Source of the DNA: an uncultured Bacteroidia bacterium
Lineage (GTDB): Bacteria > Bacteroidota > Bacteroidia > Bacteroidales > Prolixibacteraceae
DNA length: 64,000 nucleotides
Assembly: GCA_903897145.1 (NCBI GenBank)
Contig: CAIUAN010000038.1
Location: 62,001-126,000, forward strand
Direction: 5' to 3'
Shown here: piece after piece, positions 14,002 to 53,278 of the stretch
Layout of the letters: each line of letters opens with the position of its first letter
Numbering within the stretch: position 1 is the first letter of the stretch
Program-made: the position numbers and the translations under genes
The notes under the pieces: model-generated
The model's input: the letters and a program-made list of their open reading frames with translations, nothing else
What the model was told of the DNA's origin: nothing
Database searches by the model: none

Positions 14002-14090
14002 GAGTAGAAAGTTATTAGTTTGTTTTAAAACTAACAACTTTTTTACTTCCGAACAATAGTAGGAATAGCCTTTTTCATAAATCTAACAGG

Positions 14091-31535: not shown

Positions 31536-31567
31536 ATTAAATGCGATATATTCAAAACACAAACTTT

Positions 31568-34500: not shown

Positions 34501-34591
34501 TACCTTCACCACATTCAAATACTATAAAAAAGAGATGGATCTTTTAAAATCTGGACTATTAGGTCCGGTTCAGATTTTGACTAAACCATAA
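31568..34591 (+). CDS. Predicted alpha-L-rhamnosidase, GH106
   Basis: A 1007-aa secreted protein (leader MKNLLLILVLFYSASIAYC). The GH106 N-terminal (beta/alpha)8 region starts PPDSARPGVYWYFMDGNMSKEG and continues GNVLFLEVNVGVPRG. Two Glu residues, E335 in DSWEMGSQNW and E466 in VAAESFTAGYD, are 131 apart, very close to the spacing I recall for the catalytic pair of B. thetaiotaomicron BT0986. A galactose-binding-like beta-sandwich ends the protein (MARVRVNGKDLGVVWTAPF). It should remove terminal L-rhamnose. ATG 31568 was chosen over 31541. It is second in the island. Confidence 0.87.
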   Translation: MKNLLLILVLFYSASIAYCNDPKKDNSYTSLLKNFQNPPDSARPGVYWYFMDGNMSKEGMTADLESMKAVGIGNVLFLEVNVGVPRGKVDLLSDQWQNLFVHAVREAERLGITITLGVGPGWSGSGGPWVSGHQSMQHLVASSTQITSKTKSPIILPKPLNRSPYFGEKGLGAELIEKRTNYYEDVAVLAFPSPEDSARVIDIDEKALYYRAPYTSRPGTKQFLPTQLNYNEPRESAIIKQRNLIDITRFMKPDGTLDWKAPKGNWTIMRFGSRNNGAITRPAPLPGLGFEADKFDTTAINDHLANFTGKLFKRTGIPDKNKAGGLKSLHMDSWEMGSQNWTPNFRAEFIKRRGYDPLPFYPVYTGLILESLENSERFLWDLRLTSQELVIENHAQHLKKYGKKYNLNFSIEPYDMNPTADMELGAVADIPMCEFWSWDYGFNASFSCIQAASIAHINGASVVAAESFTAGYDAWKKYPGTMKNQGDWAFASGVNKFVYHTFQHQFLNDSLKPGATMGPYGVHWDRNQTWWPMVDGYHRYITRCQYTLQQGQSVADILYLTPEGAPHVFRAPASALTGEEPMPDRRSYNFDGCSPSQIMTAKVEGHKIVFPSGAAYSLMVLPNSHTITPVLLAKIESLVSEGAIIIGNPPRKSPSLVNYPDCDQEVGLKALMLWGKFDAPQEVTKISVDKGNIYWGGAFSNLKTSELYPDYEVTIKILKDLSLKPDFETTGPVRYTHRKLDGNDIYFVANKSNGAIDPILTFRSEGGKTELWNPMTGTSKELTEIKKLDNQVQIPIHFEPYESFFVVFNPQLKQEKLVTKNYTTPKLLEEIQKPWSVSFDPKWGGPKNIIFDKLQDWSTNSLPGIKYYSGIATYRNTFNLKESQIKNAKQELILKLGEVMNMARVRVNGKDLGVVWTAPFQVNISDAVLEGVNQVEIEVANLWSNRLIGDDQYPDDGIVGKEWPEWLTQNKPRTSGRYTFTTFKYYKKEMDLLKSGLLGPVQILTKP

Positions 34592-34594
34592 TTT

Positions 34595-34651
34595 CAAGTT
34601 AAAAAGCTGAGGATCAATTTTGTTTTTGTTATAATTTCTAACTTGACTCAG
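34595..34651. other. Possible H-type pseudoknot after the GH106 gene
   Basis: CAAGTTA (34595-34601) pairs with TAACTTG (34639-34645), and CTGAG (34607-34611) pairs with CTCAG (34647-34651). The order 1-2-1'-2' is a pseudoknot topology. Short stems in AT-rich DNA can arise by chance. Confidence 0.3.
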
Positions 34652-34780
34652 GATTAGGCAGGCCATTGAAAAAAGGTGCAACAAGCAATTAATTGAAATG
34701 ACTATAAAATCACCAATTTAGCTTACCTTCATCGATAAAATTTAAGAATACAGATTAATCATAAAATAGATCAGAAACAG

Positions 34781-36196: not shown

Positions 36197-36259
36197 AATA
36201 TTCTACAAAATGATCTCAATATAATTCTTCCTAAGTCAAACAAATTAATCTAAACTGCT

Positions 36260-39200: not shown

Positions 39201-39409
39201 AAAATATTCAACCTGGACAAAACGAGATTACGGTTAAAGTAATCGGCAGTCTAAAAAACACATTCGGTTATTTTTATAAAGACAGAGAGCGATGGATTAA
39301 TGGACCTGGAGATTGGGATGTGGCTCCAGATAAAGCCCCAAATAGTGCCGCCTATTTCTTGATGGATTATGGATTAGAAGAACCATTTAATCTTATCCGT
39401 TCTAATTAA
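36260..39409 (+). CDS. GH106-like glycoside hydrolase, lipoprotein
   Basis: A 1049-aa protein with a lipobox (LLLVGCKQK, Cys22), so it is membrane-anchored. The N-terminal barrel begins APLWDWNDKITEEGIDFHMKKF and contains WIYDENSYPSGFAGGH. Candidate catalytic acids are E247 in IFTDEPNLE, E332 in HFWEHGWP and E396 in LSETYGGAGWE. C-terminal beta-sandwich domains follow. It is related to GH106-type proteins but the Glu spacing differs from the gene at 31568, so it may act on another linkage or sugar. A GH2-type barrel is the main alternative. Confidence 0.72.
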   Translation: MKQKNLIRFFQLISLVLLLVGCKQKPTTDGIQDYQTFKSNFLNPPSDYRTAPLWDWNDKITEEGIDFHMKKFKEGGLGGVFVHPRPGLLTEYISEDWHHLFDYTVRKGKELGMKVWIYDENSYPSGFAGGHVAAQMPESYNHGTGFSCEKQEILKIDTAKYDIIIKLENNLFTDITKNKDQFVGSKGDFYLFKKTYAEKSYWLGNNPYVDLLHKGVTQKFIEITMRGYEKYDKDEFGKTLMGIFTDEPNLEAAMGKNTDLRWTSDLFDEFQKRWGYDLKITLPSIVYEVGDWKKVRHDYYELLNELFVDRFIKPYTQYCESVGLKLTGHFWEHGWPMPTDGFDEASNYLYQQQPGVDMLGNVYTPKGQGAQFGNTRAIRELQSSANQAGHRRTLSETYGGAGWEIPFSNLKKLVDWEVVLGVNFVNQHLAYYTIKGVRKFDYPPSFTYHEPWWENYKMMGDYIGRISMATASGEQINKTLVLQPNTTSWMYFGRKIKNTTPEIIKRDFRLFVYDLERNHYQYDLGSENVLKVIGSVNKNTLVVGKRSYNLVVIPQTMQNIDLNTYKLLTEYLEKGGKILSFADSIPYFDGKESTTVNTLRSKYANQWTFAKETKELSAKNLLSDPDFSIQESDPRTGELYFQRRIMEDGQMLFFVNSNNYDMTTAKIKAKGKSLIKMDLLTGECFRLPTKSVDGQLTFEVTISPIGSELYYLSNSNIGENPIPKAPVQEQVVVGNGDLTIHPDKENVLVLDYLDLKARNIDLKEVYFMKGMHALYDSSGFKMGNPWQHKIQYKQDYIALDTFKVNSGFEVNYHFTIGENASTETIKNLSVVVERPELWDVLVNGHKVEKGSQWWIDREFFKSPIGDKVLKGSNTLTLKAQKMSVYAELMPAYIVGDFVLNPLAKGFEISTGSITKLGSWKTMGYPFYSQNVSYSQTFEAAKSNETYKLKLKKWNGVVAEVYVNKKKAGAIAYPPYELNLTKNIQPGQNEITVKVIGSLKNTFGYFYKDRERWINGPGDWDVAPDKAPNSAAYFLMDYGLEEPFNLIRSN

Positions 39410-39472
39410 TAAAATATTAAAAAGGTTTCTTACTTTTACGACTCACAACTAATACTATTTGAAAATCAACTT

Positions 39473-40390
39473 ATGAAAACAACTAAAAATCGAATCTCAA
39501 CTGCGCTTAAACTTAGTGTGATGGTGCTTTTATTCCTTAGTGCTCAAACCAATTTATTTGCAGCTTCTAAACAAAATTCTAAAATTTCGGGTGTTCAAAT
39601 TGGAACGATAACCTATAGTTTTCGTAGCATCCCAGATCAAACTCTTCAGGGAATGCTTAACGCGGCCAAAGAAGCAGGATTAAGCTCTGTTGAACTTATG
39701 GGTGGTGCGGTAGAACAATTTGCTGGTATTCCTGCCAGCAGCGATCCTCAGGTTATTCGCAAATGGCGTTCAACCGTTTCTATGGATAAATTCAAAGAAG
39801 CCCGCAAACTTTTCAATTCAAATGGGATTAAGATTAATATTTTAAAACTAGGCGACGCAGGATGGTCTGATGAGGAGATCGACTATGCATTCAATGCTTG
39901 TAAAGCATTAGGCGCGCAAGGCATTACCTCTGAGATTTCGGAAGATGCTGCTGCCCGCTTCGCCCCATTTGCGGAGAAACATAATCTATATGCTATTTTT
40001 CACAACCATGGTCAACCTGGAAATCCTAAATTTAGCTTTGACAGAGTCTTAGCGAAGGGTCCAAAAATCATGCTAAACCTTGATTGCGGTCATTATTTTG
40101 GTGCAACAGGTGAAAGCCCAGTTGCCCTGATCAAACGACTTCATAACCGCATTATCAGTTTTCACTTAAAAGACAAAACTGGCCCTAAGGCTGCGTCACC
40201 AAACAAAAACCAAGTTTGGGGTGAAGGTGAAACGCCAATTGCTGATATCCTTAACCTAATTAAAAAGGAAAAATATCCTATCACTTGCGATATCGAACTA
40301 GAATATACTGTCCCTGCAAATTCTGACGCAGTAAAAGAGGTAGCTAAATGTCTAGATTATTGCAAAGCAGCCCTAGCTGTAAAAAAATAA
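39473..40390 (+). CDS. Secreted xylose-isomerase-like TIM barrel (sugar isomerase/epimerase or lyase)
   Basis: A 305-aa protein with a signal peptide (ALKLSVMVLLFLSAQTNLFA). The AP-endonuclease-2/xylose-isomerase-like fold is shown by SSVELMGGAVEQFAG, AIFHNHGQ, LNLDCGHYFG, SFHLKDKTG and TCDIELEYT, which carry the usual Glu/His/Asp/Glu metal ligands. An exported member cannot act on a phosphorylated cytoplasmic sugar, so epimerisation or keto-glycoside lyase chemistry in the periplasm is plausible. It lies 63 bp after the GH106-like gene and is followed by a hairpin. Confidence 0.82.
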   Translation: MKTTKNRISTALKLSVMVLLFLSAQTNLFAASKQNSKISGVQIGTITYSFRSIPDQTLQGMLNAAKEAGLSSVELMGGAVEQFAGIPASSDPQVIRKWRSTVSMDKFKEARKLFNSNGIKINILKLGDAGWSDEEIDYAFNACKALGAQGITSEISEDAAARFAPFAEKHNLYAIFHNHGQPGNPKFSFDRVLAKGPKIMLNLDCGHYFGATGESPVALIKRLHNRIISFHLKDKTGPKAASPNKNQVWGEGETPIADILNLIKKEKYPITCDIELEYTVPANSDAVKEVAKCLDYCKAALAVKK

Positions 40391-40413
40391 GCAACACTAA
40401 ATTACTCTAATAG

Positions 40414-40468
40414 TTCCCTTCTAACCTCTCTCATTTGATTGCTGGTTAGAAGTGAATTTGTTTTTTAG
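40414..40468 (+). terminator. Probable terminator after the TIM-barrel gene
   Basis: CTTCTAACC (40418-40426) pairs with GGTTAGAAG (40444-40452), extended by TTC / GAA across one mismatch. It is followed by a T-rich stretch including TTTTTT. It would end the 30.3-40.4 kb transcript. Confidence 0.6.
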
Positions 40469-40508
40469 AACCTTAATTATAAGCAACTAACACCACCAAA
40501 CTTATAAA

Positions 40509-43163
40509 ATGAACACATACACGAAGGTTAAAACAGCCAAGAGACTATCTTTTAATTATCTGATCTATATCGGGTTTCTAACTAGTATTCTTTTCTCCTA
40601 CAGCTTCACACGAGCAGCAGAATACAAATCAGTTAAGATCCAACATGCCTCAGGTCAGAATAAAATAGAACTTAATATTGTAAACCTATTAGCCGATCGA
40701 CTTAAAGAGGCTGGAGTTGTAGATGTTCAAACAACGGAAGAAAACAATGCCCCCTTACCTTCAAAAGAAACGCTGCTGATCGCTATTGGCATTCCACAAG
40801 CCAACAAATCGATCCAAGATTTTTTTACAAAACAGCAGATTGCACCCTTATCAAATCTTGAGCCTGGACTAGAGGGATTCTTGCTTAAGAAACTAGAGAA
40901 TCAAAACCTTGTAATCGCAGCAGGCGTTGATCAAAGAGGCTGCCTTTATGCTGTAGGTGAAATACTCAGACAAGCGAACATTCGGAATGGTGTTCTTCAG
41001 CTTCCTGACAACATTGAAGTCAGAACGGCTCCCGCCTTTGAGATCCGAGGAACCCAAGTACAACAGAGTCACATTGCCTTAAAACTTGGCAAAGCAAGAC
41101 CTTACACCGACAAAGAATACCATCGGGTAATTTTAGATTATGCCTTGGCAGGAGCAAACATCTTCTCAACAGATGCAGGCCCAATATTTGATTTCATCAA
41201 ATCTTACGGACTAATGACTCAAGGTGAGTTTGGTCCAAATACCGCTTTAAATGAGGTTGTTCCTGCTGCCTGGGAAGCAAAAGAATCGATCGGACGTACT
41301 GGGTATGTTTGTCTATCGGTACCAGAAGGAAATCAGTACATGCTTGATTTATGTGACAAATTCTTCAAAGATAAACCTGCCTTTGATCTAGTCAAATTCT
41401 GGGGTGGTGATGGTGGTGGATGTGAATGTGATCGTTGCAAGCCATACGGACTAATTTTCATTAAGACGGTTGAAAAAATGGCTGCAATCGTGCATAAATA
41501 TCATCCAGAGACCAAGGTTTATTTTACCAATCAAAAATTCCAAAACAACGACGACAACGCTATTTTTAAATACTTACAAGAGAACCCAAGCGACTGGTTG
41601 TGGGCTTGGGGATATGGCCCAGGATCAGATGCGACCTCTTGGCAGCCTGGTCAGCGTCAAACCCACCGAATGGATCTCTTCAAGTATCCAGGATATGGTC
41701 CATATAGCCTTTATCCAAAAGAGATCTTACATCAATTACCACCAAACGTAAAATTGCTATATTACAACGAAATAACTCACTGGAGATATGCACAACATGC
41801 GTTCATCCAGATGTATCCAAGACCAGACCGGGATGGCAATCTACCTCCTCACTGGAGTCATGACATCTACGAACGTCGTCCGGACCAATATCTAACCATG
41901 GTCTACGACCGTCTCTCTTTTTATGCTTGTCCAAAAAATTACTACCGAATTTTCAATGATTTAATGCCTTATGGTGTTGGAGATATTACCCATTCCAGTG
42001 GCCGTCACGATCATTTTAACCAATGGATGTGGCAACGACTTTTATGGGCTCCGCGAACGAGTTTGGAGGCAGTGGTGAACGATTATTGCAATACCTGGTT
42101 TGGCAACGAGGCAGCACCTTTAATGGCTAAAGCATTATATATTCTTGAAGATAACCTAACTGAACAAGCGGATAATCCAATGCCAACGAAAGCAGGTATC
42201 AAACGCTACTACGATTTAGTTAAACAAGCAGGAAGATTGATGCCAAAAGAGATCATGGATCAAGATTGGCTATGGCATTTGTATATGCAAAAAGGGGCCT
42301 TAGACAGATATACCCAGCTTAGTGCTATTCAACAAACACATTTGCAAAAACGGATTGAGAAACTGATATCTGAATCGATAAAAAGTGGTAACACAAAAAA
42401 TGGAATCCAAGAAGCACTTACATTATTTGATCTACCCGAAACAAAAGAGATGAGCGATCTCAGAGAAGAAGCTAAAGAGCTTAGTGATGTAAGTAATAAA
42501 CTATTTGGAGAACGCAGTGAAGGACTCTATAATCTCAAGCATGATTTTATTGGTCTGGGCTGGCTAAAGCGCCAATTAGAACGGGCAAAAACTGCAGATA
42601 ATAAGAAAAAAGAAGAATTACTTTCAACCATCGTGGATTATGAAAATCCAGGCCCTGGTGGGTTTTATGACAACTTAGGAACATACAATATTGCACCTCA
42701 TCTGGTAGCAGGCTCTGTTTATGACCATGGACAGCCTTATGTGCCTCAAATGCTATCAGAAGGGAATAGACCCTCACAGCGATCAATGCATTACACGTCA
42801 GATGAAAAACAAGGATTAACCCTTCACTATAGCAATTTAGATCCAAAATCGGCTTATAAAATTCGCTTTACGCTCGTTCGACCATGGTTTCAAGAACGCT
42901 ATGCCATGCGGATGAATCAAAAATCTGAAACTATTTATGCCGACAATATCCCAATTGCTAAAAATGTAGAATTACCGTTGCAAATGTCTGATTTCTTTAC
43001 GTATGACATCCCTATGGAAGCGACTGCTGATGGTGATCTCACGATTCGTTTAGAACGTGCGTCAGATGTGGGCTATGGTGATCGAGTAAGTGTTGAGCAA
43101 TGGAGAAACTCAGGAGGCTGGGGAACTATTGCGTCGGAAGTTTGGCTGATGAAGAAACATTAG
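40509..43163 (+). CDS. Unassigned secreted glycoside-hydrolase-like protein (DUF4838/alpha-glucuronidase-like)
   Basis: An 884-aa protein with an N-terminal hydrophobic leader (YLIYIGFLTSILFSYSF). Residues 40-170 resemble the small alpha/beta N-terminal domain that precedes catalytic barrels in GH20, GH67 and GH115. The central region carries VKFWGGDGGGCECDRCKPYG (about 296-315), like the DUF4838 Cys motif, and YYNEITHWRYAQH, a possible acid site. A helical region and a beta-sandwich (about 750-884) close the protein. Catalytic residues cannot be assigned with confidence. Genomic context points to plant or algal rhamnose-containing glycans. Confidence 0.65.
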   Translation: MNTYTKVKTAKRLSFNYLIYIGFLTSILFSYSFTRAAEYKSVKIQHASGQNKIELNIVNLLADRLKEAGVVDVQTTEENNAPLPSKETLLIAIGIPQANKSIQDFFTKQQIAPLSNLEPGLEGFLLKKLENQNLVIAAGVDQRGCLYAVGEILRQANIRNGVLQLPDNIEVRTAPAFEIRGTQVQQSHIALKLGKARPYTDKEYHRVILDYALAGANIFSTDAGPIFDFIKSYGLMTQGEFGPNTALNEVVPAAWEAKESIGRTGYVCLSVPEGNQYMLDLCDKFFKDKPAFDLVKFWGGDGGGCECDRCKPYGLIFIKTVEKMAAIVHKYHPETKVYFTNQKFQNNDDNAIFKYLQENPSDWLWAWGYGPGSDATSWQPGQRQTHRMDLFKYPGYGPYSLYPKEILHQLPPNVKLLYYNEITHWRYAQHAFIQMYPRPDRDGNLPPHWSHDIYERRPDQYLTMVYDRLSFYACPKNYYRIFNDLMPYGVGDITHSSGRHDHFNQWMWQRLLWAPRTSLEAVVNDYCNTWFGNEAAPLMAKALYILEDNLTEQADNPMPTKAGIKRYYDLVKQAGRLMPKEIMDQDWLWHLYMQKGALDRYTQLSAIQQTHLQKRIEKLISESIKSGNTKNGIQEALTLFDLPETKEMSDLREEAKELSDVSNKLFGERSEGLYNLKHDFIGLGWLKRQLERAKTADNKKKEELLSTIVDYENPGPGGFYDNLGTYNIAPHLVAGSVYDHGQPYVPQMLSEGNRPSQRSMHYTSDEKQGLTLHYSNLDPKSAYKIRFTLVRPWFQERYAMRMNQKSETIYADNIPIAKNVELPLQMSDFFTYDIPMEATADGDLTIRLERASDVGYGDRVSVEQWRNSGGWGTIASEVWLMKKH

Positions 43164-43181
43164 AAATCGTGTCGATAACTA

Positions 43182-43988
43182 CTAGACAGGTAAATTAACA
43201 TTCTGGAGTAGTACATTTCCCAGTACCGAACGATTGGGAAGATCGAGGTATGGATAAGTTACCTTTGAGAGGTATAGACCTTGCGCATGCACAGGAACAA
43301 TCGTCTTCGGGGTAATTTTATGCTTTAAATAGTCTTCAAAATCAGCCACAGAAAGTTTTTCATTGCCAATCTCAATGAGCTTACCAACAATTATTCGAAT
43401 CATACCAGCTAAAAAACGATTCGAAGTAAATCGAAATCGGAGAATGGTCTGATCGGCATTGGTATAAAATTCTGCTTTTGAAAGATAGCAGATAGTGTGC
43501 TCATATTTCAAAGGTGATTTGCAGAAACATTTGAAATCGTTAAATTTTGTGAGCAGTGCTAGGGCCTGTTTAATTTCAGACAGCTTAGGATTAACTAGCG
43601 GATAATAGGCACTCAAACCTAGCAAATAGGGATCATTAAACGTATGTAAATAATAGTCATAACTGCGCTCTACCGCATCGAAGCGGGCATGTGTTGTCCC
43701 GTCCATCGGAATCACATCGTAGATTAAAATCTCATGAGGCAACGATTTATTCAAACGAAACAACAGATCAAAATTCAGTTTCTTGGATAAATCGAAATGA
43801 AAAAAGAACTGACTAGCATGTACCTGAGCATCTGTCCGGCCACAACCAACAATTGCAATTGGTTCTTTTAACAGCTTACTAAGCATGGTTTCCAGAACCT
43901 GCTGAACACTAACTATACCTGGGAGTTTTTGCCATCCTCGGTAGTTATTTCCATTGTAAGCTGCATGGATAAAGTAGCGCACAGTCAT
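43182..43988 (-). CDS. truA: tRNA pseudouridine synthase A
   Basis: A 268-aa enzyme that makes pseudouridine at positions 38-40 of tRNA anticodon arms. The start YFIHAAYNGNNYRGWQKLPG and the catalytic Asp in VGCGRTDAQVHA are diagnostic, and the C-terminal block FLAGMIRIIVGKLIEIG is present. Full length. It is a housekeeping gene inside the glycan island, transcribed against it and only 18 bp from the 884-aa gene's stop. A minus-strand -7 element lies upstream. Confidence 0.96.
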   Translation of the reverse strand: MTVRYFIHAAYNGNNYRGWQKLPGIVSVQQVLETMLSKLLKEPIAIVGCGRTDAQVHASQFFFHFDLSKKLNFDLLFRLNKSLPHEILIYDVIPMDGTTHARFDAVERSYDYYLHTFNDPYLLGLSAYYPLVNPKLSEIKQALALLTKFNDFKCFCKSPLKYEHTICYLSKAEFYTNADQTILRFRFTSNRFLAGMIRIIVGKLIEIGNEKLSVADFEDYLKHKITPKTIVPVHAQGLYLSKVTYPYLDLPNRSVLGNVLLQNVNLPV

Positions 43989-44314
43989 TGATTTTAATTT
44001 TACCTTGCAAATATACTTCTTTCGGACCTTTACACCCTAAAAATCAAAGACAACAACTGTTTTTAAATAAACTAAGCCTTTCATGAAACCTTGCAAACCC
44101 TTCTATTATAGAAGTAAGTAATTTGTATCAACCTCATAGTTGGCAGGATATCGGTACTGATCTTAGGAAGTTTAACTTGGCATATTTAAGTTTGATTGAT
44201 CAAAGAGAGTGCTATGACAAGGAAAATTCAGCTAAAGGAATACGATAAATTCTAATTATTAAGACTATTTTAGTCAAGTAGTATCATTAATCCAATATCA
44301 AATCGAACAATCAC
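43989..44314. other. Divergent intergenic region truA / GH43-like
   Basis: A 326-bp gap. CAAATATA (44008-44015) reads TATATTTG on the minus strand, a -7 match for truA. Two perfect palindromes lie on the island side: CTTCTA-TTA-TAGAAG (44100-44114) and GACTA-TTT-TAGTC (44263-44275), the second 40 bp before the GH43 gene. They may be operators for this gene cluster. No small gene was recognised. Confidence 0.45.
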
Positions 44315-45244
44315 ATGAAGTATTTATTACTACTCTTAACCTGTCTTTCCTTGCAAGTGAATGCCAAAGACAAGGTTTTAATATTTTCTTATTTCATCGA
44401 TAATGGACAAGATGGATTGCATTTGGCCTATAGCAAAGATGGTTTAAACTGGGAAGCACTAAATCAGGGAAAATCTTATCTGACACCGACTGTTGGACCT
44501 GATAAACTAATGCGTGATCCAAGCATTACAAAAGGTCCAGATGGAATCTTTCATATGGTATGGACCTGCAGTTGGAAAGATAAACAAATTGGTGTTGCGC
44601 ATTCCAAAGATCTCATTCATTGGTCGGAGCAAAAGGCTATTCCAGTGATGGCCCACGAGCCCACAGCGAAGAACTGCTGGGCACCAGAGATATTTTACGA
44701 TTCTAAAGCTAAAAACTATTTAATTTTCTGGGCCACTACCATATCAGATCGTCATAGTCCAATAGACGATTCGAAACAAGAAAAAGGTTTAAACCATCGC
44801 ATATATTGCACCACAACGACTGATTTTAAATCCTATACACCGACACGAATGTTGTTTAATCCAAAATTCAGTGTGATAGATGCGACAATTTTACCCAAAA
44901 ATAAAAGCTACTATCTGTTTTTAAAGAATGAAAATCCAAATCCGCCAGAGAAAAACATCAGGTTAACCACTTCAAAATCAGCCTCAGGACCTTATCCCAC
45001 GGCAGTTTCTGAGCCAATAACAGGCAATTATTGGGCAGAGGGACCAACGGCAATCGAAATAAATGATTATGTTTATGTTTACTTTGATAGGTATACAGAG
45101 CATCGTTATGGAGCCGTCAGATCTAAAAACTTAACAGATTGGGAAGATATTTCCAACCAAATTAAGTTTCCGGATGGCACAAGACACGGCACTGCGTTTA
45201 AAGTATCATCTAAACTATTTAAAGAACTTATTAACCCAAAATGA
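44315..45244 (+). CDS. Secreted GH43-like five-bladed propeller glycosidase
   Basis: A 309-aa protein with a signal peptide (MKYLLLLLTCLSLQVNA). Candidate catalytic triad of clan GH-F: base D68 in MRDPSITKG, pKa-modulating D189 in VIDATIL and acid E242 in YWAEGPTAIE. GH43-type repeats include NCWAPEIFYD. Such enzymes release L-arabinose, xylose or galactose side chains. Its stop codon overlaps the GH78 start by 4 bp (ATGA), which indicates translational coupling and a joint role in trimming rhamnose-containing polysaccharide. Confidence 0.85.
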   Translation: MKYLLLLLTCLSLQVNAKDKVLIFSYFIDNGQDGLHLAYSKDGLNWEALNQGKSYLTPTVGPDKLMRDPSITKGPDGIFHMVWTCSWKDKQIGVAHSKDLIHWSEQKAIPVMAHEPTAKNCWAPEIFYDSKAKNYLIFWATTISDRHSPIDDSKQEKGLNHRIYCTTTTDFKSYTPTRMLFNPKFSVIDATILPKNKSYYLFLKNENPNPPEKNIRLTTSKSASGPYPTAVSEPITGNYWAEGPTAIEINDYVYVYFDRYTEHRYGAVRSKNLTDWEDISNQIKFPDGTRHGTAFKVSSKLFKELINPK

Positions 45245-48021
45245 TCCGTTTGAAATATTACCTTTTCATAATAGCGCTTTTTATAACCCTTACGAATTTT
45301 GCTCAGAGTCATTTTTCGGCTGCCAATTTAAAATGCGACTCGAAAACGAATCCGATTGGTCTAGCTGTTAAAAATCCACTTTTAAGCTGGGAGCTTCATT
45401 CGTTAGATCGGGATCTCAATCAGTCGGCTTACCAGATTCTAGTTTCAGAAAGCTTAGATAAACTAACCAACCTAATTGGCGATTGTTGGGATTCTAAAGT
45501 TGTAAAATCAAGTCAATCAAACACAATCGTATACAATGGTCTTCCCTTGAATCCAGAGAAAAAATATTTTTGGAAGGTTAAAGTGTTTAATCAAAAAGGG
45601 AAAGAGAGTGCATGGAGTGAACCGGCATCCTGGGAAATGGGGCTATTATCGAATGTCGACTGGGAAAAAGCAACCTGGATTAGTTATGAGAATCTTCCTA
45701 CAAATATGACGGTTGTCCCAGGGGTTCCGGGGGACGGAGAGAAACTAGGTAATAAAGCAGTTAAAAGAAGTGTAGTCCCACTATTCAGAAAAGAATTCAA
45801 GGCCGAAAAAGAGATTAAAGATGCAACACTATTCATAAGTGGTCTGGGCAGTTACGAAGCTTCAATTAATGGACAAAAAATTGGAGAAAGCTTTCTCACG
45901 CCTGGCTGGACTGATTATACTAAAGTCTGTCTGTATAACACCTACGATGTAACCTCAAAAATTAAACTGGGGAATAATGCCATTGGTGTGATCGTTGGAA
46001 ATGGTTTTTACAATATCAACCGGGAGCGCTACCGGAAATTGGTCATTGCCTATGGTTATCCTACGATGATCAGCAAACTTAAAATTAATTATACCGATGG
46101 ATCATCAAAAACCATAGTCTCAGATAATACCTGGAAATGCACTCCCTCACCAATTATTTATTCAAGCATTTATGGCGGTGAAGATTATGATGCGAGAGCA
46201 GAGCAAAAAGGGTGGAACATGCCCGACTTTAAAGAGATCAAATGGAAGTCAGCACTTGTAGCTACTGAACCGAAAGGGGAGCTAAGCAGCGAAACCGACA
46301 ACCCAATTACCATCCACCAAACGATCAATGTAAAAGATATTGAACACCCAGAGCCAGGGAAATATTTATATGATTTTGGTCAAAACTGCTCTGGTGTTGT
46401 GGAACTAAAGGTCACAGGCAAGAGAGGCTCAATCATCAAGATGACCCCTGGAGAATTGATCACGCCAGATCGTAAGATCAATCAAAAAGCTTCTGGCACA
46501 CCTTATACCTTATCGTATACCTTAAAAGGCGAAGGTGTGGAGACTTGGAGGCCAAAATTTACCTATTATGGGTTTCGTTATGTCATGGTGGAAGGTGGGG
46601 CTCCAGCTTCAGAAAAGCCAGGTAAATACAAACCTTCGATTATCAATATGCAGCTGCTACATACCTGCAATTCAGCCCCAAGAGTTGGAGAGTTCAGTTG
46701 TTCAAATGATTTATTCAATCAAATTAACACACTAATTGACTGGGCAATAAGAAGTAATATTCAAAGTGTTGTGACTGATTGTCCTCATCGTGAAAAACTA
46801 GGATGGCTAGAGCAGACCTATCTAATGGGTGCTTCCATGTTTTACAACTACAACCTTTACCCGCTCTATCGCAAAGCTATTCGAGATATGATAGATGCGC
46901 AGACAGCAGAGGGATTAGTGCCTGATATTGCACCTGAATTTGTCCCGTTCTCTGGAGGATTTAGGGACTCACCCGAATGGGGTAGTGCAGGAGTAATTTT
47001 ACCATTTATGCTCTGGCAATGGTATGGCGATTTAAGTGTCGTGGAGGAGGCATTACCGATGATGCGGAAATATGTCAATTACCTCGATAAAAAATCAGAT
47101 GGTCATATTCTTAATTATGGATTAGGCGACTGGGTTGACCTTGGTCCTAAGCCACCTGGCGAAGCACAATTAACGCCCAAAGCACTTACTGCTACAGCAA
47201 TCTATTACTATGATATTATTCTTTTAGCCAAGATGCTCAGGGCTACTAAAAACATTGAAGAAGCGACCAAGCTTGATGATTTAGCCAATGAGGTAAAAAA
47301 AGCATTTAATGCGAAATTTTACAACAAAAAAACCAAATCCTATTCAACAGGGAGTCAAACGGCTATTGCCATGCCATTATATGTAGGTTTAGTGGATGAA
47401 AAAGAGCGCAAAAACGTAGTAAAATCTTTAGTGGAATCGATAAACGATTCGAAAAAAGCACTTACAGCTGGTGATATTGGCTTTCACTTCTTAGTGAAAG
47501 CACTTGAGGAAAATGGCTGTTCGCCATTACTATTCGAGATGAATTTCCGTAATGATGTGCCAGGATATGGTTTTCAACTAAAAAAGGGGGCCACAGCCTT
47601 AACTGAATCATGGCCAGCATTAGAAAATGTATCAAATAATCACTTGATGCTTGGTCATTTAATGGAGTGGTTTTACACCGGATTAGGTGGCATTAAGCAA
47701 GATGAAGGAGGTATTTCATTTAAGAATATCGTTATTAGACCAGAGATCGTAGGTGATCTTACCTGGGTGAAATCGAGCTATCATTCACCTTATGGGCTAA
47801 TAAAAAGCGATTGGAAAAAAGAGGCATCTGCGCTAGAGATGAAGATTGAAATACCTGCTAACACCTCAGCAACCATATTCTTTCCAACCACACAAAAAGG
47901 TTCGATCACAGAAGATGGCAAAAAAATCACCGTGCAAAAAAATGGAGATGGAAAATTCTTCATTAAGATTGGTTCTGGAAGCTACACATTTAGAATGGAT
48001 TACGTAAGTCCTAAAAAATAA
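45241..48021 (+). CDS. Predicted alpha-L-rhamnosidase, GH78 (926 aa)
   Basis: A secreted GH78 enzyme with leader MIRLKYYLFIIALFITLTNF. An N-terminal Fn3-like domain (about 25-140) is followed by the Bac_rhamnosid N-terminal domain (SYEASINGQKIGESFLTPGW), a concanavalin-like region, an (alpha/alpha)6 barrel from about 480, and a C-terminal beta-sandwich. The active loop is DCPHREKLGWLEQ with D513 and E518; the position equivalent to the third acid is Gln, as in a common Bacteroidota subgroup. The C-terminal Glu is in GATALTESWPALEN. It cleaves terminal L-rhamnose by inversion. It overlaps the GH43 gene. Confidence 0.95.
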   Translation: MIRLKYYLFIIALFITLTNFAQSHFSAANLKCDSKTNPIGLAVKNPLLSWELHSLDRDLNQSAYQILVSESLDKLTNLIGDCWDSKVVKSSQSNTIVYNGLPLNPEKKYFWKVKVFNQKGKESAWSEPASWEMGLLSNVDWEKATWISYENLPTNMTVVPGVPGDGEKLGNKAVKRSVVPLFRKEFKAEKEIKDATLFISGLGSYEASINGQKIGESFLTPGWTDYTKVCLYNTYDVTSKIKLGNNAIGVIVGNGFYNINRERYRKLVIAYGYPTMISKLKINYTDGSSKTIVSDNTWKCTPSPIIYSSIYGGEDYDARAEQKGWNMPDFKEIKWKSALVATEPKGELSSETDNPITIHQTINVKDIEHPEPGKYLYDFGQNCSGVVELKVTGKRGSIIKMTPGELITPDRKINQKASGTPYTLSYTLKGEGVETWRPKFTYYGFRYVMVEGGAPASEKPGKYKPSIINMQLLHTCNSAPRVGEFSCSNDLFNQINTLIDWAIRSNIQSVVTDCPHREKLGWLEQTYLMGASMFYNYNLYPLYRKAIRDMIDAQTAEGLVPDIAPEFVPFSGGFRDSPEWGSAGVILPFMLWQWYGDLSVVEEALPMMRKYVNYLDKKSDGHILNYGLGDWVDLGPKPPGEAQLTPKALTATAIYYYDIILLAKMLRATKNIEEATKLDDLANEVKKAFNAKFYNKKTKSYSTGSQTAIAMPLYVGLVDEKERKNVVKSLVESINDSKKALTAGDIGFHFLVKALEENGCSPLLFEMNFRNDVPGYGFQLKKGATALTESWPALENVSNNHLMLGHLMEWFYTGLGGIKQDEGGISFKNIVIRPEIVGDLTWVKSSYHSPYGLIKSDWKKEASALEMKIEIPANTSATIFFPTTQKGSITEDGKKITVQKNGDGKFFIKIGSGSYTFRMDYVSPKK

Positions 48022-48024
48022 CTC

Positions 48025-49254
48025 ATGCAAAATTCGGATTTTAAATCACCAAACAGTCGTCGTAAATTTATTGGAAATGCAGGAATAGGTGCTACTGCAC
48101 TAACGGTACTGCCCCATATGGCAGGTGCTTATTTGCCGAAAACAGATCAGAAAATTAGAATTGGCATTGTAGGTGGCCGATTTGGCGCTGGATTCCAATT
48201 CCATGAGCATCCAAACTGCATTGTTCAAGCAGTGAGTGACTTGCGTGCCGACAGACGCGAGAATTTGATGAAGGCCTACAAGTGTTCGAAAACTTATGAA
48301 TCCTTAGAAAAGCTATTGCATGATCCAAAGATAGACGCCGTATTTATTGCCACTCCAGCTCCAGATCATGTCAAGCATGTGCTAGCCTCTCTCGAGGCCG
48401 GAAAGCATGTATTGTGCGCTGTTCCAGCGGCTCTTAACATTGAAGACTGTTATAAGCTTAGAGAGGCAGTGCGCCGAACAGGCTTAACCTATATGATGGC
48501 TGAAACGAGTGTCTACAGACAAAATACCATTTCAGTGCGAAAATTCCATGAAGAAGGACGCTTTGGTGAGATATTTAGTGCAGCAGCCGAGTACAACCAT
48601 CCAGGACTAGAAACCTTATGGTTTGAAGATGGAAAACCAACCTGGCGCCATGGATTACCTCCCCTCTTATATCCAACCCACTGCACATCATTTCTGGTAT
48701 CTGTGACTGGTGAGAGACTTGCAAGTGTGAGTGGTTTAGGCTGGGGAGACAATAGTTCAATGTTAAAAAACAATCCATATCAGAACCCTTTCTGGAATGA
48801 AACAGCATTCTTTCAAACAGATAAAAATCATCCTTTTAGAGTTGAAGTAAATTGGAAGGGAGCTCTTATAAATGCTGAAAGAGCTGAATGGAGGGGGACT
48901 AAGATGAGTTTTATCTCTTCGCCAAATGAATCCAGCGCACATACCATAGTCAAAATTGCGGATACCGATGCAAAAGATGATGGCGGATTTCAAATCAAAG
49001 CCAACGTTACAGAAAAATACGTTCAACCGAAGTGGTGGCAGACTGATCTTTTACCGGAGGCAATGCGTCATGACTCAGGGCACGACGGCTCACATAGCTT
49101 TATAACCCACGAATTTATCGATTCGCTCATTCACAAGCGCCTGCCCAAAGTTAACATCTATGAAGCACTTGCCTACACTGCACCAGGAATCATAGCCCAC
49201 CAGTCGGCTTTGAAAAATGGAGAACCGATGAATATCCCAAATTTTGATAAGTAG
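48025..49254 (+). CDS. Tat-leader Gfo/Idh/MocA family protein lacking the EKP motif
   Basis: A 409-aa protein with a twin-Arg leader (NSRRKFIGNAGIGATAL). The Rossmann motif is IRIGIVGGRFGAGF, and an alpha/beta C-terminal domain follows. The usual EKP motif, whose Lys lies near the nicotinamide and substrate, is replaced by A132-V133-P134 (VLCAVPAAL). So it may bind NAD(P) without classical dehydrogenation or use other residues. It is 3 bp after the first GH78 gene and 32 bp before the second, so it belongs to the same transcript. Confidence 0.85.
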   Translation: MQNSDFKSPNSRRKFIGNAGIGATALTVLPHMAGAYLPKTDQKIRIGIVGGRFGAGFQFHEHPNCIVQAVSDLRADRRENLMKAYKCSKTYESLEKLLHDPKIDAVFIATPAPDHVKHVLASLEAGKHVLCAVPAALNIEDCYKLREAVRRTGLTYMMAETSVYRQNTISVRKFHEEGRFGEIFSAAAEYNHPGLETLWFEDGKPTWRHGLPPLLYPTHCTSFLVSVTGERLASVSGLGWGDNSSMLKNNPYQNPFWNETAFFQTDKNHPFRVEVNWKGALINAERAEWRGTKMSFISSPNESSAHTIVKIADTDAKDDGGFQIKANVTEKYVQPKWWQTDLLPEAMRHDSGHDGSHSFITHEFIDSLIHKRLPKVNIYEALAYTAPGIIAHQSALKNGEPMNIPNFDK

Positions 49255-49286
49255 AACCTCAAGCCACCAACAACGAATACTTAATC

Positions 49287-51800
49287 ATGAATGCTAAAGC
49301 CGCGTATTTAACTCTTGCCATTGGCCTGATTGGAAGCCTTACCTGCTTTAGTCTAGCGACAAATAAAGTCACAGATCCAAATAAATTAGCAGGAGCAAAA
49401 TGGATTGGGGACAATAAGCCACTTCCAAGTTCCGACTCCTTGTATTATTTAAATGATGCTGCACCAGAGTTCCGCAAGACGTTCAAGGTGGCTGGCGAAT
49501 TGAGATCAGCAAAGCTATTTATTACTGCAGCAGGGTATTATGTAGCAAAACTTAATGGAAAGAAGATTGGAAAAAGTTTTCTAGATCCCGCCTGGACTAC
49601 CTACAGCAAACGAATATACTATTCAACCTACGATATTACGTCTCAGATTTTACCTGATCAAAATAGTATTGTTGTTTCGATCGGCAATGGATTTTACAAT
49701 CCTCTACCCCTTCGCATGTGGGGCACCTATAATCTAAGGAAGACTTTGTCAGTAGGCAGACCCGCGTTTATTGCTAAACTAGTACTCATATATAAAAATG
49801 GTCACCAAGAGACGATTAATACCGATTCATCATGGAAATTTGCCACTGGACCGATCCTACGAAATAGCGTTTACCTAGGAGAGGTATATGATGCACGGAA
49901 GAAGCTAAACAACTGGTCGAAAGTGTCCACTAAAAATCAATCATGGACGAATGCCAGCGTAGTAGATGGTCCAGGTGGAAATCTGCAGAAAGCTTTCTTT
50001 CCAGCTATACACCAAACAGAATTTCAAAAACCCATTAAAATAACCACTCCAAAGCCTCAAGTTTATGTGGTTGATATGGGTAAAAATTATACTGGTCTTT
50101 ATAAAATTCGACTTAGAGGTAAGGAAGGAGAAAAAATAACGCTCCGATTTGGAGAGCGAATCTATACCAACGGAGAATTAAATCCAATGACGGCGGTTTG
50201 TGGACAAATCAAAAAACAAGGTCGCGGTGGTCCCGGTGCACCAGCCATTGCGTGGCAAAGTGACGAATATATTTTTGGGAAAGAGAAAGAAGTCTGGTAC
50301 AGCCCTCAATTTACTTTTCACGTTTTTAGATACATCGAAATCACTGGTCTCACTCTAGCCCCTAAATTATCTGACATCCAAGGGATTGTTTTACACACAA
50401 ATGTAAAAACCAATGGTACTTTTAACTCCTCATCTTTATTGCTTAATTCCATCCAAAATGCGACCAGACAAACTTTTGTAAATAACCTAATGAGTGTGCA
50501 GTCGGACTGTCCAGGACGTGAACGATTTGGTTATGGAGGTGACCTAAACGCGACAAGCGAATCTTTTATCTGCAACTACAACATGCAGCAATTTTACAGA
50601 AAGACGATTTACGATTGGACTGACGTAGTGATGGATACTGCATTTGTTGATGTAGCGCCTTTTGTGATGAAATACTGCGGAATTAGCTGGGAATCAGCAC
50701 TTCTTACCACACAATACAACCTATACAAATATTACAACGATACCGCAATTGTGAATGAGATGTATGACTTTGACCTAAAATGGATGGACAAGGTGGCACG
50801 AATTCATCCTACCAGCATGGTCCACAAAGGGTTAGCTGATCACGAATCCATGATACCTGTACCTGTAGAACTAATTGGAACTAGTCATTACCTGCAATGT
50901 GCTCATATTATGAAGCAGTTTGCGACCCTGAAAAAAGATAAAACAAACGAACTAAAATTTGGGGAGTTAGAAAAAAATATCGCATCACAGTTAGTTAGTA
51001 TGTTTTGGCAAAGTCCTATTAAATCACCGATTAAAAGTCAAACACTGCTAGATAAGCTATTAAGCTTTTTAGAGAAAAATACCCCACCTCAACTACTCAA
51101 TATATTTTGGAAAGCCCCGATTAAACCACCAATAAATAAGCAAACACTTTTTGCGACACTTCTGTACCATAATCTTATCCCAGAAAAAGAGAAGCCAGCA
51201 GCAGCAGACTCACTTTTGAATGCACTGAAAAATGGCGTAAATGGTCATTTTACGACCGGTATTTTTGGAACTAAATATATTCTTGAAGCGCTCTCACAAG
51301 CTGGCTATGCCGATAAAGTTTTTGATATCGTAAATTCGAGAGAATATCCGGGATGGGGATTTATGATCGACAAAGGGGCCACCACCCTTTGGGAAACTTG
51401 GAAAGAAAGCGAAGATACTTATTCAAATTGTCATCCTATGTTTGGAACTGTTTCCGAATGGTCTTACAGATGGTTAGGTGGCATTCGGCAAACTGAAAAT
51501 CAAGTAGGATTTAAAAAGTTCATCATTGCCCCTTTTCTTCCAAAAGATCTAAAATATGTAAATTGCAGTTATAAATCACCGCAAGGATTAATAACATCAA
51601 ATTGGGAGAAAACAACTCCTTCGGCAACAGTGTTTAAGATTCGTATTCCCAAAAGTTCGGAAGCAGAGGTTTCCTTGCCTTTTGATAAATTTAAAAGTAT
51701 AAGTTTAGTCATGAATTCGAAAATGGCAAATGTTAAACATTTGAATTCAGCAAATATTAAATTGACCGAAGGGACCTATCACATCGAGGTCATTCAATAA
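49287..51800 (+). CDS. Predicted alpha-L-rhamnosidase, GH78 (837 aa) with internal duplication
   Basis: A secreted GH78 enzyme without the N-terminal Fn3-like domain of its neighbour. Leader AAYLTLAIGLIGSLTCFSLA. The substrate-binding domain (GYYVAKLNGKKIGKSFLDPAW) and the (alpha/alpha)6 barrel are present. Catalytic acids D407, E412 and D419 lie in DCPGRERFGYGGD and the C-terminal Glu is E703 in GATTLWETW, so the site is complete. Residues 566-592 and 600-626 are an imperfect tandem repeat (14 of 27 identical) inserted in the barrel. It should act on a substrate distinct from the 926-aa enzyme. Confidence 0.92.
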   Translation: MNAKAAYLTLAIGLIGSLTCFSLATNKVTDPNKLAGAKWIGDNKPLPSSDSLYYLNDAAPEFRKTFKVAGELRSAKLFITAAGYYVAKLNGKKIGKSFLDPAWTTYSKRIYYSTYDITSQILPDQNSIVVSIGNGFYNPLPLRMWGTYNLRKTLSVGRPAFIAKLVLIYKNGHQETINTDSSWKFATGPILRNSVYLGEVYDARKKLNNWSKVSTKNQSWTNASVVDGPGGNLQKAFFPAIHQTEFQKPIKITTPKPQVYVVDMGKNYTGLYKIRLRGKEGEKITLRFGERIYTNGELNPMTAVCGQIKKQGRGGPGAPAIAWQSDEYIFGKEKEVWYSPQFTFHVFRYIEITGLTLAPKLSDIQGIVLHTNVKTNGTFNSSSLLLNSIQNATRQTFVNNLMSVQSDCPGRERFGYGGDLNATSESFICNYNMQQFYRKTIYDWTDVVMDTAFVDVAPFVMKYCGISWESALLTTQYNLYKYYNDTAIVNEMYDFDLKWMDKVARIHPTSMVHKGLADHESMIPVPVELIGTSHYLQCAHIMKQFATLKKDKTNELKFGELEKNIASQLVSMFWQSPIKSPIKSQTLLDKLLSFLEKNTPPQLLNIFWKAPIKPPINKQTLFATLLYHNLIPEKEKPAAADSLLNALKNGVNGHFTTGIFGTKYILEALSQAGYADKVFDIVNSREYPGWGFMIDKGATTLWETWKESEDTYSNCHPMFGTVSEWSYRWLGGIRQTENQVGFKKFIIAPFLPKDLKYVNCSYKSPQGLITSNWEKTTPSATVFKIRIPKSSEAEVSLPFDKFKSISLVMNSKMANVKHLNSANIKLTEGTYHIEVIQ
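50982..51164 (+). repeat. Tandem duplication inside the 837-aa GH78 gene
   Basis: Two copies of an 81-bp coding segment (50982-51062 and 51084-51164, 102 bp period). The protein copies share FW, PIK, PI, QTL and LL, 14 of 27 residues. The second copy aligns with the barrel segment found in other GH78 proteins; the first looks like the extra one. Confidence 0.7.
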
Positions 51801-51866
51801 TTAATAGGCTAATGTTTAACGACGACAAAAAATTAGATTAAGACCTTCGAATTCTGATCATGAAAA

Positions 51867-51918
51867 CATTCAAGCATAAAAAAAGACGCATCGCTGCGTC
51901 TTTTTTTATGCTTGAATG
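51867..51918. terminator. Bidirectional terminator with a perfect 24-bp stem
   Basis: A perfect inverted repeat, arms 51867-51890 and 51895-51918, loop TCGC. The lower stem holds A and T tracts of seven that serve as the U-run in either direction. It separates the converging GH78 and oxidoreductase genes. Confidence 0.92.
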
Positions 51919-51928
51919 CGAAATACGA

Positions 51929-53278
51929 CTAATATTTAAAAACTTTACCGCCAGCCATTACTTGTTGAGTTTTCTCATCAAATGTAGCTTTCTCTCCTGT
52001 ACGAAGAGCAGCGGTTGTCATAATATTAGCAATTGAATGACTATAGCCAGCCTCAACAGGAGCGTTAGTCTTTGGATTATTAGCACGGACACAGTCCATC
52101 CAATTCTTCATATGCGCATTAGTTAAACTGTCTGCACCAGTATTTGAGTTCGTTTCCACTTTCTCTTGTGGAAGTAAAAACTCTGCAAGCAAATTCTCTT
52201 TATAGCCCATATCCTTGGCATATTTCTCTTTTAATCCCCCTTCAGAAGTAACCTTGTTGGTATCTAAATCCAGCTTTCCTCCATTGGAGAAATACCACTC
52301 TTTAACCCCACCAGCCTCATTGGTTTGACGAGACGAGTATATAACTTGGAAACCCTCCTCTTTATTATCTAATGGACCGTAATCAAATACCGCGCTCATG
52401 GTATCAAAATTTCTACGTCCATCTTTCCAAACATAAATACTTCCATTAGCAGCCACCGAACGTGGATGAGGAAGATGAGAGAACCAATGGACCGTGTCGA
52501 TCTGATGCGACATCCACTGACCAGGAATACCTGAAGAATATGGCCAAAACAACCTAAACTCTAAATATTTACGTGGATCCCACTTCTCATAAGGACGATT
52601 TAACAAAAAGCGTTTCCAATCGGTATCAGACTCCTTAATCGAAGCGACCTCTTTGGCACGACGCCAACGACCTGGCTGATTGACATTCCAAGTCATTTCA
52701 ACCGCACATATCTTACCAAACTTACCTGCTTGAATAAAATCATGAGCAGCTTGATAATTCGGACCAGAACGTCTTTGAGACCCAATCTGAACAACTTTAC
52801 CACTATCCTTCACTGCTTTCTTTGCATAGATAGCATCATCCATCGTTTCAGCAAAAGGTTTTTCGCAATAAACATGCATCCCTGCCGTAACCGACTGTCC
52901 ACAAAGCACTGCATGTTGAAAGTCAGCTGTTGATATGATGGCTGCATCAAGTTTTAAATTGTAAAACTCATCGGTATTACGAGTACCAACTGCCGTTGTA
53001 TCATTGTGTTTCTTAATCCAATCAAGGCCATCTTGACGACGCTTGTTCCAAATATCACAAACAGCAACAAATTCGAAGTTCATCTCTTTCGAATATTTCT
53101 GAAAAGCTAATCCTAAAGCACTCTCAAAACGACCAGAGAAACCAAGAATTCCAACCTGAACCCGATCGTTTGCTCCAATTATTCGACCATAACTCTTTGA
53201 GGTCATGCCCACACCACCAATGGTTAGACCTGCGGCACCAATTGCGGATTTTTGAATAAATTCTCTTCTATTTGACAT
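51929..53278 (-). CDS. Tat-leader Gfo/Idh/MocA family oxidoreductase
   Basis: A 449-aa protein with a twin-Arg leader (SNRREFIQKSAIGAAGLTIG). The Rossmann motif is VQVGILGFSGRF, and the catalytic EKP is intact in MHVYCEKPFAETMDDAI. The C-terminal domain has WMSHQIDTVHWF, with a conserved His. It may oxidise a sugar or glycoside at C3 in the periplasm using tightly bound NAD(P); the substrate is unknown. Transcribed toward the island, it has its own upstream region with a LacI-like palindrome at 53330-53337. Confidence 0.87.
   Translation of the reverse strand: MSNRREFIQKSAIGAAGLTIGGVGMTSKSYGRIIGANDRVQVGILGFSGRFESALGLAFQKYSKEMNFEFVAVCDIWNKRRQDGLDWIKKHNDTTAVGTRNTDEFYNLKLDAAIISTADFQHAVLCGQSVTAGMHVYCEKPFAETMDDAIYAKKAVKDSGKVVQIGSQRRSGPNYQAAHDFIQAGKFGKICAVEMTWNVNQPGRWRRAKEVASIKESDTDWKRFLLNRPYEKWDPRKYLEFRLFWPYSSGIPGQWMSHQIDTVHWFSHLPHPRSVAANGSIYVWKDGRRNFDTMSAVFDYGPLDNKEEGFQVIYSSRQTNEAGGVKEWYFSNGGKLDLDTNKVTSEGGLKEKYAKDMGYKENLLAEFLLPQEKVETNSNTGADSLTNAHMKNWMDCVRANNPKTNAPVEAGYSHSIANIMTTAALRTGEKATFDEKTQQVMAGGKVFKY

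Follow-up and report, generated by a model that had tools for sequence, protein, structure and literature searches.

A predicted GH109-like NAD+ glycosidase and a putative lyase-type TIM barrel among the rhamnosidase genes of an uncultured Prolixibacteraceae bacterium

The window analyzed here is a 64,000-nucleotide stretch (C38:62001–126000) of the 2.8 Mb, 69-contig genome (G000) of an uncultured bacterium of the family Prolixibacteraceae. A sequence-only reading had proposed that three of its genes encode an exported route in which rhamnosides are cleaved by C3 oxidation, elimination, and hydration, alongside ordinary hydrolysis. The three open reading frames (ORFs) lie where that reading placed them and belong, by Pfam, to the families it named: a 305-residue xylose-isomerase-like TIM barrel, called TIM below (39473–40390, forward strand; PF01261 44.5 bits, cut-off 31.1), a 409-residue Gfo/Idh/MocA protein with a twin-arginine (Tat) leader, GfoA (48025–49254, forward strand; PF01408 71.4 bits), and a second, 449-residue Tat-leader Gfo/Idh/MocA protein, GfoB (51929–53278, reverse strand; PF01408 47.2 bits, cut-off 24). 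We hold with about even confidence that the region encodes hydrolytic rhamnoside utilization (glycoside hydrolase (GH) families GH78 and GH106, RhaT, RhaA, and a rhamnulokinase-like protein) together with two independent oxidative-type enzymes. As judged from sequence, and differently from the scheme first proposed, the special features here would be a GH109-like single-enzyme glycosidase set among GH78 genes and, in the neighboring GH106 run, a lyase-type barrel.

Gene units were deduced from strand and spacing. The TIM run (31541–43163, forward strand) consists, in order, of a GH106 α-L-rhamnosidase-type protein (31541–34591; PF17132 578 bits), an L-fucose/L-arabinose-isomerase-like protein with no export signal by eye (34781–36196; PF11762 34.3 bits, PF02952 30.6 bits), a divergent GH106-like protein (36260–39409; PF17132 68 bits, partial), TIM, and a DUF4838 protein (40509–43163; PF16126 35.6 bits). 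A pseudouridine-synthase gene on the reverse strand (43182–43988) separates it from the GfoA run (44315–51800, forward strand), in which a GH43-like gene (44315–45244; PF04616 53.5 bits) overlaps a GH78 α-L-rhamnosidase gene (45241–48021; PF17389 302.8 bits) by 4 bases, GfoA follows after 3 bases, and a second GH78 α-L-rhamnosidase-type gene (49287–51800; PF17389 194.5 bits) follows after another 32. GfoB stands on the reverse strand with an acyl-CoA-dehydrogenase gene after it. The three genes thus lie among rhamnosidases by position, as had been said, but in three separate units, and a single operon for all three is ruled out by their strands and by the reverse-strand gene in between.

The proposal that all three proteins are exported agrees with their N-termini. 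TIM has a Sec-type signal (by eye), and the two Gfo proteins have the twin-arginine leaders SRRKFIG and NRREFIQ. A simple RR pattern was found in 21 of 23 GfoA-type and 22 of 22 GfoB-type ORFs, and tatC is present in the genome; the Pfam TAT_signal model matched neither GfoA nor GfoB. All three proteins also belong to superfamilies that are used for C3 oxidation and elimination of glycosides, as the sequence-only reading had noted.

In an alignment of 34 sequences, TIM residues Glu154, His177, His179, Asp204, His207, His231, Lys233, Glu275, and Glu277 are invariant. The profile of these sequences aligned with structure 8bvk, which we equated with the O-glycoside β-eliminase AtOGE by chain length and residue numbers. 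In this alignment, TIM His177, His179, Asp204, and His231 meet AtOGE site residues His132, His134 (catalytic), Asp163, and His189, as given in the AtOGE report (PMC10628242); the strand-8 glutamate falls outside the aligned region. The chains of AL1, a 3-keto-β-glucopyranoside-1,2-lyase of Alistipes (8tcd, 8tcr), share the stretches His-Asn-His, Asp, and His-Ile-Lys-Asp with TIM, which carries the AL1-type lyase positions His-x-His, Asp, and His. When compared by hhalign with three His-x-His barrels of the same genome (one AL1-type and two that are 33–37% identical to it), the TIM profile matched at 96.5% probability over 262 columns, whereas the probability was 11.5% against five epimerase-type barrels, which have Glu-Pro-Leu-Asn. 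Because of these site residues and profile comparisons, we favor a lyase, or an allied eliminase or hydratase, over an epimerase as the predicted function of TIM. The kinship with lyases claimed for it earlier holds, in that the site is of the lyase type and not of the epimerase type.

The AlphaFold2 model of TIM (mean predicted local distance difference test score, pLDDT, 91.2) was compared with solved structures by VIA. The matches included Art22 (Z 24.4), 3lmz (24.1), 3p6l (23.9), the C-glycoside deglycosidases (20–22; DgpB ~21–22), the AL1 lyase (21.4–21.6, with 22–23% identity), UlaE (21.1), AtHYD (20.4), and YcjR (20.2). Comparing predicted structure with keto-glycoside lyases, as had been suggested, yields a match to AL1 in a fold shared with many functions; Foldseek alone gives no function for TIM, as the fold is too common. 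Several results count against a lyase assignment. The match to 8bvk reached only E 0.003, that to the AL1-type structure 8tct was E 0.45 and reveals no clear AL1 relationship, a single-sequence search matched no characterized lyase, and the fold matches at Z 20–24 include epimerases, a hydratase, and xylose isomerases. TIM is outside the AL1 family, and the role of AL1-type lyase in this genome belongs to another protein, at C5:135.8 kb (255–271 bits to AL1 chains). That protein (L137:9842–10708, reverse strand) is an AL1-family TIM barrel, exported by eye, that scores 271 bits to 8tcd and whose gene adjoins sulfatase-like and GH78 genes.

TIM might instead act after glycoside cleavage, as a 3-keto-sugar hydratase, dehydratase, or epimerase resembling AtHYD, IolE, or YcjR. 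Among NCBIfam models, IolE alone matched it at E ≤ 0.001 (25.5 bits), and the two have the His-x-His region in common; the Z scores of AtHYD and YcjR are near the 21.6 of AL1. Identity to AtHYD (15%) and YcjR (13%) is lower than to AL1, and the epimerase-type barrels differ at the active site and in profile probability as described above. This evidence weighs more on an epimerase than on a hydratase, and we regard the alternative as a serious, though somewhat unlikely, possibility.

Matches to TIM (E 1e-20) were found in 60 of the 140 genomes of the family, and we compared 40 loci, comprising the best matches and a selection of the rest. A Gfo gene directly adjoins TIM in nine of these. The nine Gfo proteins have Glu/Gln-Lys-Pro in seven cases (by a simple pattern) and the Tyr-Pro-Thr-His sequence of GfoA (YPTH) in none, so that the Gfo partner of TIM, where there is one, is not of the GfoA type; they are not GfoB orthologs either, scoring 36–75 bits compared to 600–970 for orthologs. 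A rhamnosidase gene lies within 6 genes of TIM in 11 of 24 close loci (7 of 20 with one genus block counted once), compared to 1 of 16 distant TIM loci and 1 of 12 loci of other barrels of this genome. These associations have limits. No Gfo gene lies within 3 genes of TIM in 31 of 40 loci, 13 of the 24 close loci have no rhamnosidase within 6 genes (some on short contigs), and the Fisher values are 0.008, 0.026, and, after collapsing the genus block, 0.045, all of them one-sided, uncorrected, and drawn from loci that are not independent. Counting that of the window, six genomes of the genus have the core of GH106-like, TIM, and DUF4838 genes, in one case on a short contig, and the isomerase-like gene at 34781–36196 is also kept in the TIM block of genus relatives (L087–L090). 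Locus L097 has RhaT, TIM, and RhaA in that order; a short reverse ORF separates RhaT from TIM, and an AraC-type regulator and two genes of the GH78 type come after RhaA. In L106 (5912–8194, reverse strand), a TIM ortholog is fused to a sialate-O-acetylesterase-type (SASA) domain, with a DUF2961 gene beside it. Pfam searches at E 1e-5 gave no family for neighbors of 372 (L098), 789 (L092), and 590 (L095) residues.

A Glu-Lys-Pro motif, which we take to be a sign of the dehydrogenase type of Gfo/Idh/MocA protein, is absent from GfoA, which has Ala-Val-Pro at this site. Among 19 aligned sequences, GfoA and relatives of 38–91% identity to it, one has Thr-Val-Pro there, and Tyr190, His192, Tyr216-Pro-Thr-His219, and Gly352-His353 are invariant. 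A profile search of solved structures ranked the GH109 enzyme 2ixa first (84 bits) and a second one, AmGH109A (6t2b), fourth, with an alignment to 6t2b that spans GfoA residues 46–408, near full length. The catalytic residues of AmGH109A, Tyr226, His259, and His404 according to PMC10755693, are residues 201, 234, and 379 in the 6t2b chain, whose numbering is offset by 25, and align with GfoA Tyr190, His219, and His353, all three invariant in 19 of 19 sequences. GfoA also has the N-terminal NAD-binding domain expected of GH109 (PF01408, 71.4 bits). We compared 28 of the 29 Gfo/Idh/MocA proteins found in the genome, leaving aside a 255-residue fragment (L055). The dehydrogenase lysine is kept in 26 of the 28, the exceptions being GfoA and L053, and only these two have YPTH with the GH109 residue set. 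L053 (C34:41729) alone in the genome matches the Pfam GH109 C-terminal model Glyco_hydro_109_C (PF21252, 261 bits).

In a maximum-likelihood tree of 62 rows, which holds proteins of this genome and its relatives only, the GfoA group forms its own clade, apart from GH109 proper and sister to it (support 100/99), and GfoB is far off. Of 20 GH109 loci, 10 were chosen for the tree, which holds these less L252 and L258, along with 7 of 21 GfoB sequences; some of its other long branches were flagged as unsure. Fold comparisons point in the same direction. For the AlphaFold2 model of GfoA (pLDDT 84.8), Foldseek ranked 2ixa first, and VIA superimposed 350 residues of 2ixa with a root-mean-square deviation of 2.8 (Z 36.5). 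The four leading VIA matches were GH109 enzymes (36.5 for 2ixa, 35.5 for 6t2b; 18–19% identity) and NAD+ sulfoquinovosidases of GH188 (34.8, 34.6). The GH188 structures 8qc2, 8qc3, 8qc5, 8qc6, and 8qc8 together scored 34.2–34.8 with 14–16% identity, and the C-glycoside deglycosidase DgpA scored 33.2–33.9, a likeness by fold. One report describes an oxidoreductive mechanism within one protein for the GH188 enzyme SqgA and states that GH188 and GH109 enzymes are able to act on both anomers (PMC10755693).

We read GfoA as a Tat-exported, NAD+-dependent glycosidase that would, by its sequence and ancestry, carry out oxidation, elimination, hydration, and reduction in one active site. Since GfoA matches self-contained NAD+ glycosidases in residues and ancestry, a separate lyase should be unnecessary. 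The GH109 proteins of these genomes resemble GfoA in having twin-arginine leaders as well as in fold, catalytic residues, and the lack of the dehydrogenase lysine; GfoA differs in being shorter, in sitting in a rhamnosidase run, and in having beside it, in the same genome, a separate PF21252-positive GH109 protein. Some evidence argues against placing GfoA with GH109. It had no match to PF21252 at E up to 10, one ortholog scored 13.8 of 27 bits with this model, plain oxidoreductases lead a single-sequence search of solved structures with 2ixa third, and the structural lead over dehydrogenases is small. GfoA is GH109-like on paper, yet is not classed as GH109.

As an alternative, GfoA could be a conventional sugar dehydrogenase or an anhydro-sugar isomerase, exported and similar to levoglucosan dehydrogenase or YjhC. 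Both are among its fold matches (Z 34.6 for levoglucosan dehydrogenase; Z 31.9 with 22% identity for YjhC), and because the former is so close behind GH109, fold by itself would not settle the function of GfoA. The lead of oxidoreductases in the single-sequence search also fits this alternative. The replaced lysine, the complete and invariant set of GH109 residues, and the grouping with GH109 in the tree make it unlikely; a plain dehydrogenase of the Glu-Lys-Pro type is ruled out by the missing lysine together with the complete residue set.

GfoA matches (E 1e-40) occur in 26 of the 140 family genomes. We counted 14 close loci (L205–L215, L217, L218, and L224; L216, the same gene as L217 but cut, was left out) and five distant ones (L219–L223). 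A GH78 or GH106 gene lies within 6 genes of GfoA in seven close loci (L205, L207, L208, L210, L213, L215, and L224), compared to 2 of 20 GfoB loci (one-sided Fisher 0.014, uncorrected) and 0 of 5 distant GfoA loci. Beyond the family, GfoA matches at E 1e-70 were found in 6 of 295 sampled genomes of the order, the window's own and one other of its family included. Among the five loci, in four genomes, of other families, GH78 adjoins GfoA in one (L275), a Gfo–TIM-type pair stands beside it in L273 and L274, and two have neither. Some of these counts tell against a link with rhamnosidases. The comparison with distant loci gives p 0.07 only, the other seven close loci have no rhamnosidase within 6 genes (some contigs are short), the seven positive loci represent three genera with five from the window's genus alone, GH31 also adjoins GfoA in L205, and only one of the five other-family loci has a rhamnosidase beside GfoA. 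Pfam at E 1e-5 assigned no family to neighbors of 683 and 601 (L213), 496 (L215), and 276 (L205) residues.

These statistics bear on the possibility that nothing oxidative takes place at the locus and that GfoA, TIM, and GfoB are bystanders from large paralogous sets (29 Gfo and 13 TIM-barrel matches) that came to lie near rhamnosidases by chance. The modest association values would suit it. GfoA is, however, packed between GH78 genes with gaps of 3 and 32 bases, rhamnosidases occur no more than 3 genes away from it in three genera of Prolixibacteraceae and in a further family, and six genomes of the genus preserve the TIM core; we therefore consider chance proximity improbable.

GfoB is of the dehydrogenase type by motif, with Glu-Lys-Pro invariant in 21 sequences, and its best solved structures are 8tdh and 8tdf (63 bits). 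By these sequence matches, it is remotely related to glycoside 3-dehydrogenases. It probably takes part in 3-keto chemistry of a general kind and may be a C3 dehydrogenase. The NCBIfam BT_2158 and BT_2159 models agree with the earlier statement that Bacteroidota oxidize glycosides at C3, but both Gfo proteins fall below the cut-offs; for BT_2158_fam (NF058561, cut-off 750), GfoB scored 84.6 and GfoA 45.6 bits, and neither is a member. We compared GfoB loci of 20 genomes, excluding the window's own and its nearest relatives (G083, G089, and G090). The two loci with a rhamnosidase within 6 genes, counted above, come from this set. Among eight loci of the genus, acyl-CoA-dehydrogenase-like and rhamnulokinase-like genes lie within 6 genes in four, as in the window. 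Among 12 loci of other genera, another Gfo gene lies within 3 genes in seven, and a TIM barrel (5 of 12) or DUF1080 gene (3 of 12) within 6. In the nearest relative compared, G083 (L224), the distance from GfoB to GH78 is two genes, which resembles the window, and match positions place GfoB and GfoA ~4 kb apart in G083, 6 kb in G089, and 12 kb in G090. The link of GfoB with the rhamnosidase run is confined to these nearest relatives. In another genus, L234:7832–12778 holds DUF1080, Gfo, an epimerase-type barrel, and GfoB in a row, a 3-keto-type cluster. In other genera, the epimerase-type barrels encoded next to GfoB carry Glu-Pro-Leu-Asn on the strand that bears His-x-His in TIM, and TIM is not the counterpart of the L234 barrel, which is of the epimerase type.

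That all three proteins form one rhamnoside pathway, in which C3 is oxidized by GfoA and/or GfoB before TIM removes the aglycone by elimination and a hydratase and reductase complete the route, is very improbable: the lyase-type site of TIM, the nine TIM loci with adjoining Gfo genes (seven with Glu/Gln-Lys-Pro), the distant relationship of GfoB to 8tdf/8tdh and the BT_2158 model, its Gfo and DUF1080 neighbors in other genera, and its place near GH78 in G083 would fit, but the genes form three units, the GfoA site is self-contained and of the GH109 type, 18 of 20 GfoB loci have no nearby rhamnosidase, none of the nine TIM-adjoining Gfo proteins is a GfoB ortholog, and the window has no DUF1080 match. 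The chemistry of the sequence-only reading is plausible and its interpretation is partly supported overall; the single pathway is not supported, with GfoA self-contained by its residues and ancestry and GfoB in a unit of its own.

The 3-keto pathway of Bacteroides thetaiotaomicron, encoded by BT2156–BT2160, resembles the window in its Gfo superfamily members and reportedly includes a TIM barrel. It differs in that both Gfo proteins here are below the BT_2158 cut-off and DUF1080 (PF06439) has no match in the window at E up to 0.001. Elsewhere in the genome there are 14 DUF1080 stretches, the nearest at C38:138447, 12 kb past the window end. Some 9–14 kb beyond the end of the window, at C38:134882–139670 (L127:8882–13670), a Gfo protein that scores 164.6 bits with BT_2158_fam is followed by a 1132-residue protein with two DUF1080 stretches, and this pair is a better candidate for a Gfo–DUF1080 3-keto system than TIM, GfoA, and GfoB. 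A second rhamnosidase-type cluster at C7:44–60 kb (L144) has two BT_2158-like Gfo proteins (149–150 bits) and GH106-like, GH92-like, GH29-like, and GH78 genes (labels by phmmer).

The uptake and first steps for free rhamnose, at least, are ordinary ones, since the L-rhamnose/proton symporter RhaT (11568–12623, reverse strand; NF010024 533 bits, cut-off 468) and L-rhamnose isomerase RhaA (9961–11226, reverse strand; NF002203 638 bits, cut-off 572) exceed their cut-offs and a rhamnulokinase-like FGGY kinase (57566–59041, forward strand; TIGR02627 510.3 bits, cut-off 528) falls just below. A complete phosphorylating route was not found in the window: a Pfam scan of its genes, which covered some but not all of the ORFs and nothing elsewhere in the genome, gave no rhamnulose-phosphate aldolase. 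A DUF2961 protein (12856–14037) adjoins RhaT and RhaA; DUF2961-like genes also occur in the GfoA–GH78 cluster of another family (L275) as well as beside the TIM fusion of L106. The isomerase-like protein at 34781–36196 is far under the cut-offs of the named NCBIfam models that it matched, with 62.4 of 700 bits for sulfoquinovose isomerase.

In the mechanism that we propose, the NAD+ held by GfoA itself would serve to oxidize the bound sugar at C3, with His353 as base/acid by analogy to GH109. The proton at C2 (H2) would be lost to Tyr190 and the aglycone expelled with help from His219, after which addition of water and reduction of the ketone would give net hydrolysis by one protein. From its place between two GH78 genes, at distances of 3 and 32 bases, we suggest as substrate of GfoA a rhamnose-containing glycan or a sugar bared by rhamnose removal; we infer action on rhamnosides from gene neighborhood alone. 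TIM would be a lyase-type barrel, exported and metal-dependent, whose probable role is to cleave C3-oxidized glycosides that another exported dehydrogenase has made, or to rehydrate their product. Some relatives encode a candidate partner of this kind next door; this window does not. GfoB is perhaps a C3 dehydrogenase, possibly of a different system. Among openly licensed PMC papers, none was found on 3-keto-rhamnose, 3-keto-rhamnoside, or 3-oxo-rhamnose (two matches hold only 3-keto-glycal), and among the matches listed none concerned Gfo/Idh/MocA proteins with rhamnosidase or polysaccharide utilization.

In its fullest form, this reading makes GfoA a new exported NAD+-glycosidase family, sister to GH109, that acts by transient C3 oxidation on rhamnosides or on residues bared by GH78, beside classical rhamnosidases in one operon, with TIM in a two-protein lyase route for C3-oxidized rhamnosides in relatives that have a neighboring dehydrogenase; we offer it tentatively, as a rather unlikely whole. 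To our knowledge, few oxidoreductive glycosidase families are known. The chief novelty is GfoA, whose activity is predicted, as a GH109-like group tied to rhamnosidases. If true, a sister group of GH109 located in rhamnosidase runs would extend the range of substrates known for such enzymes, and this reading might help to explain why a 2.8 Mb genome encodes so many Gfo/Idh/MocA (29) and TIM-barrel (13) proteins.

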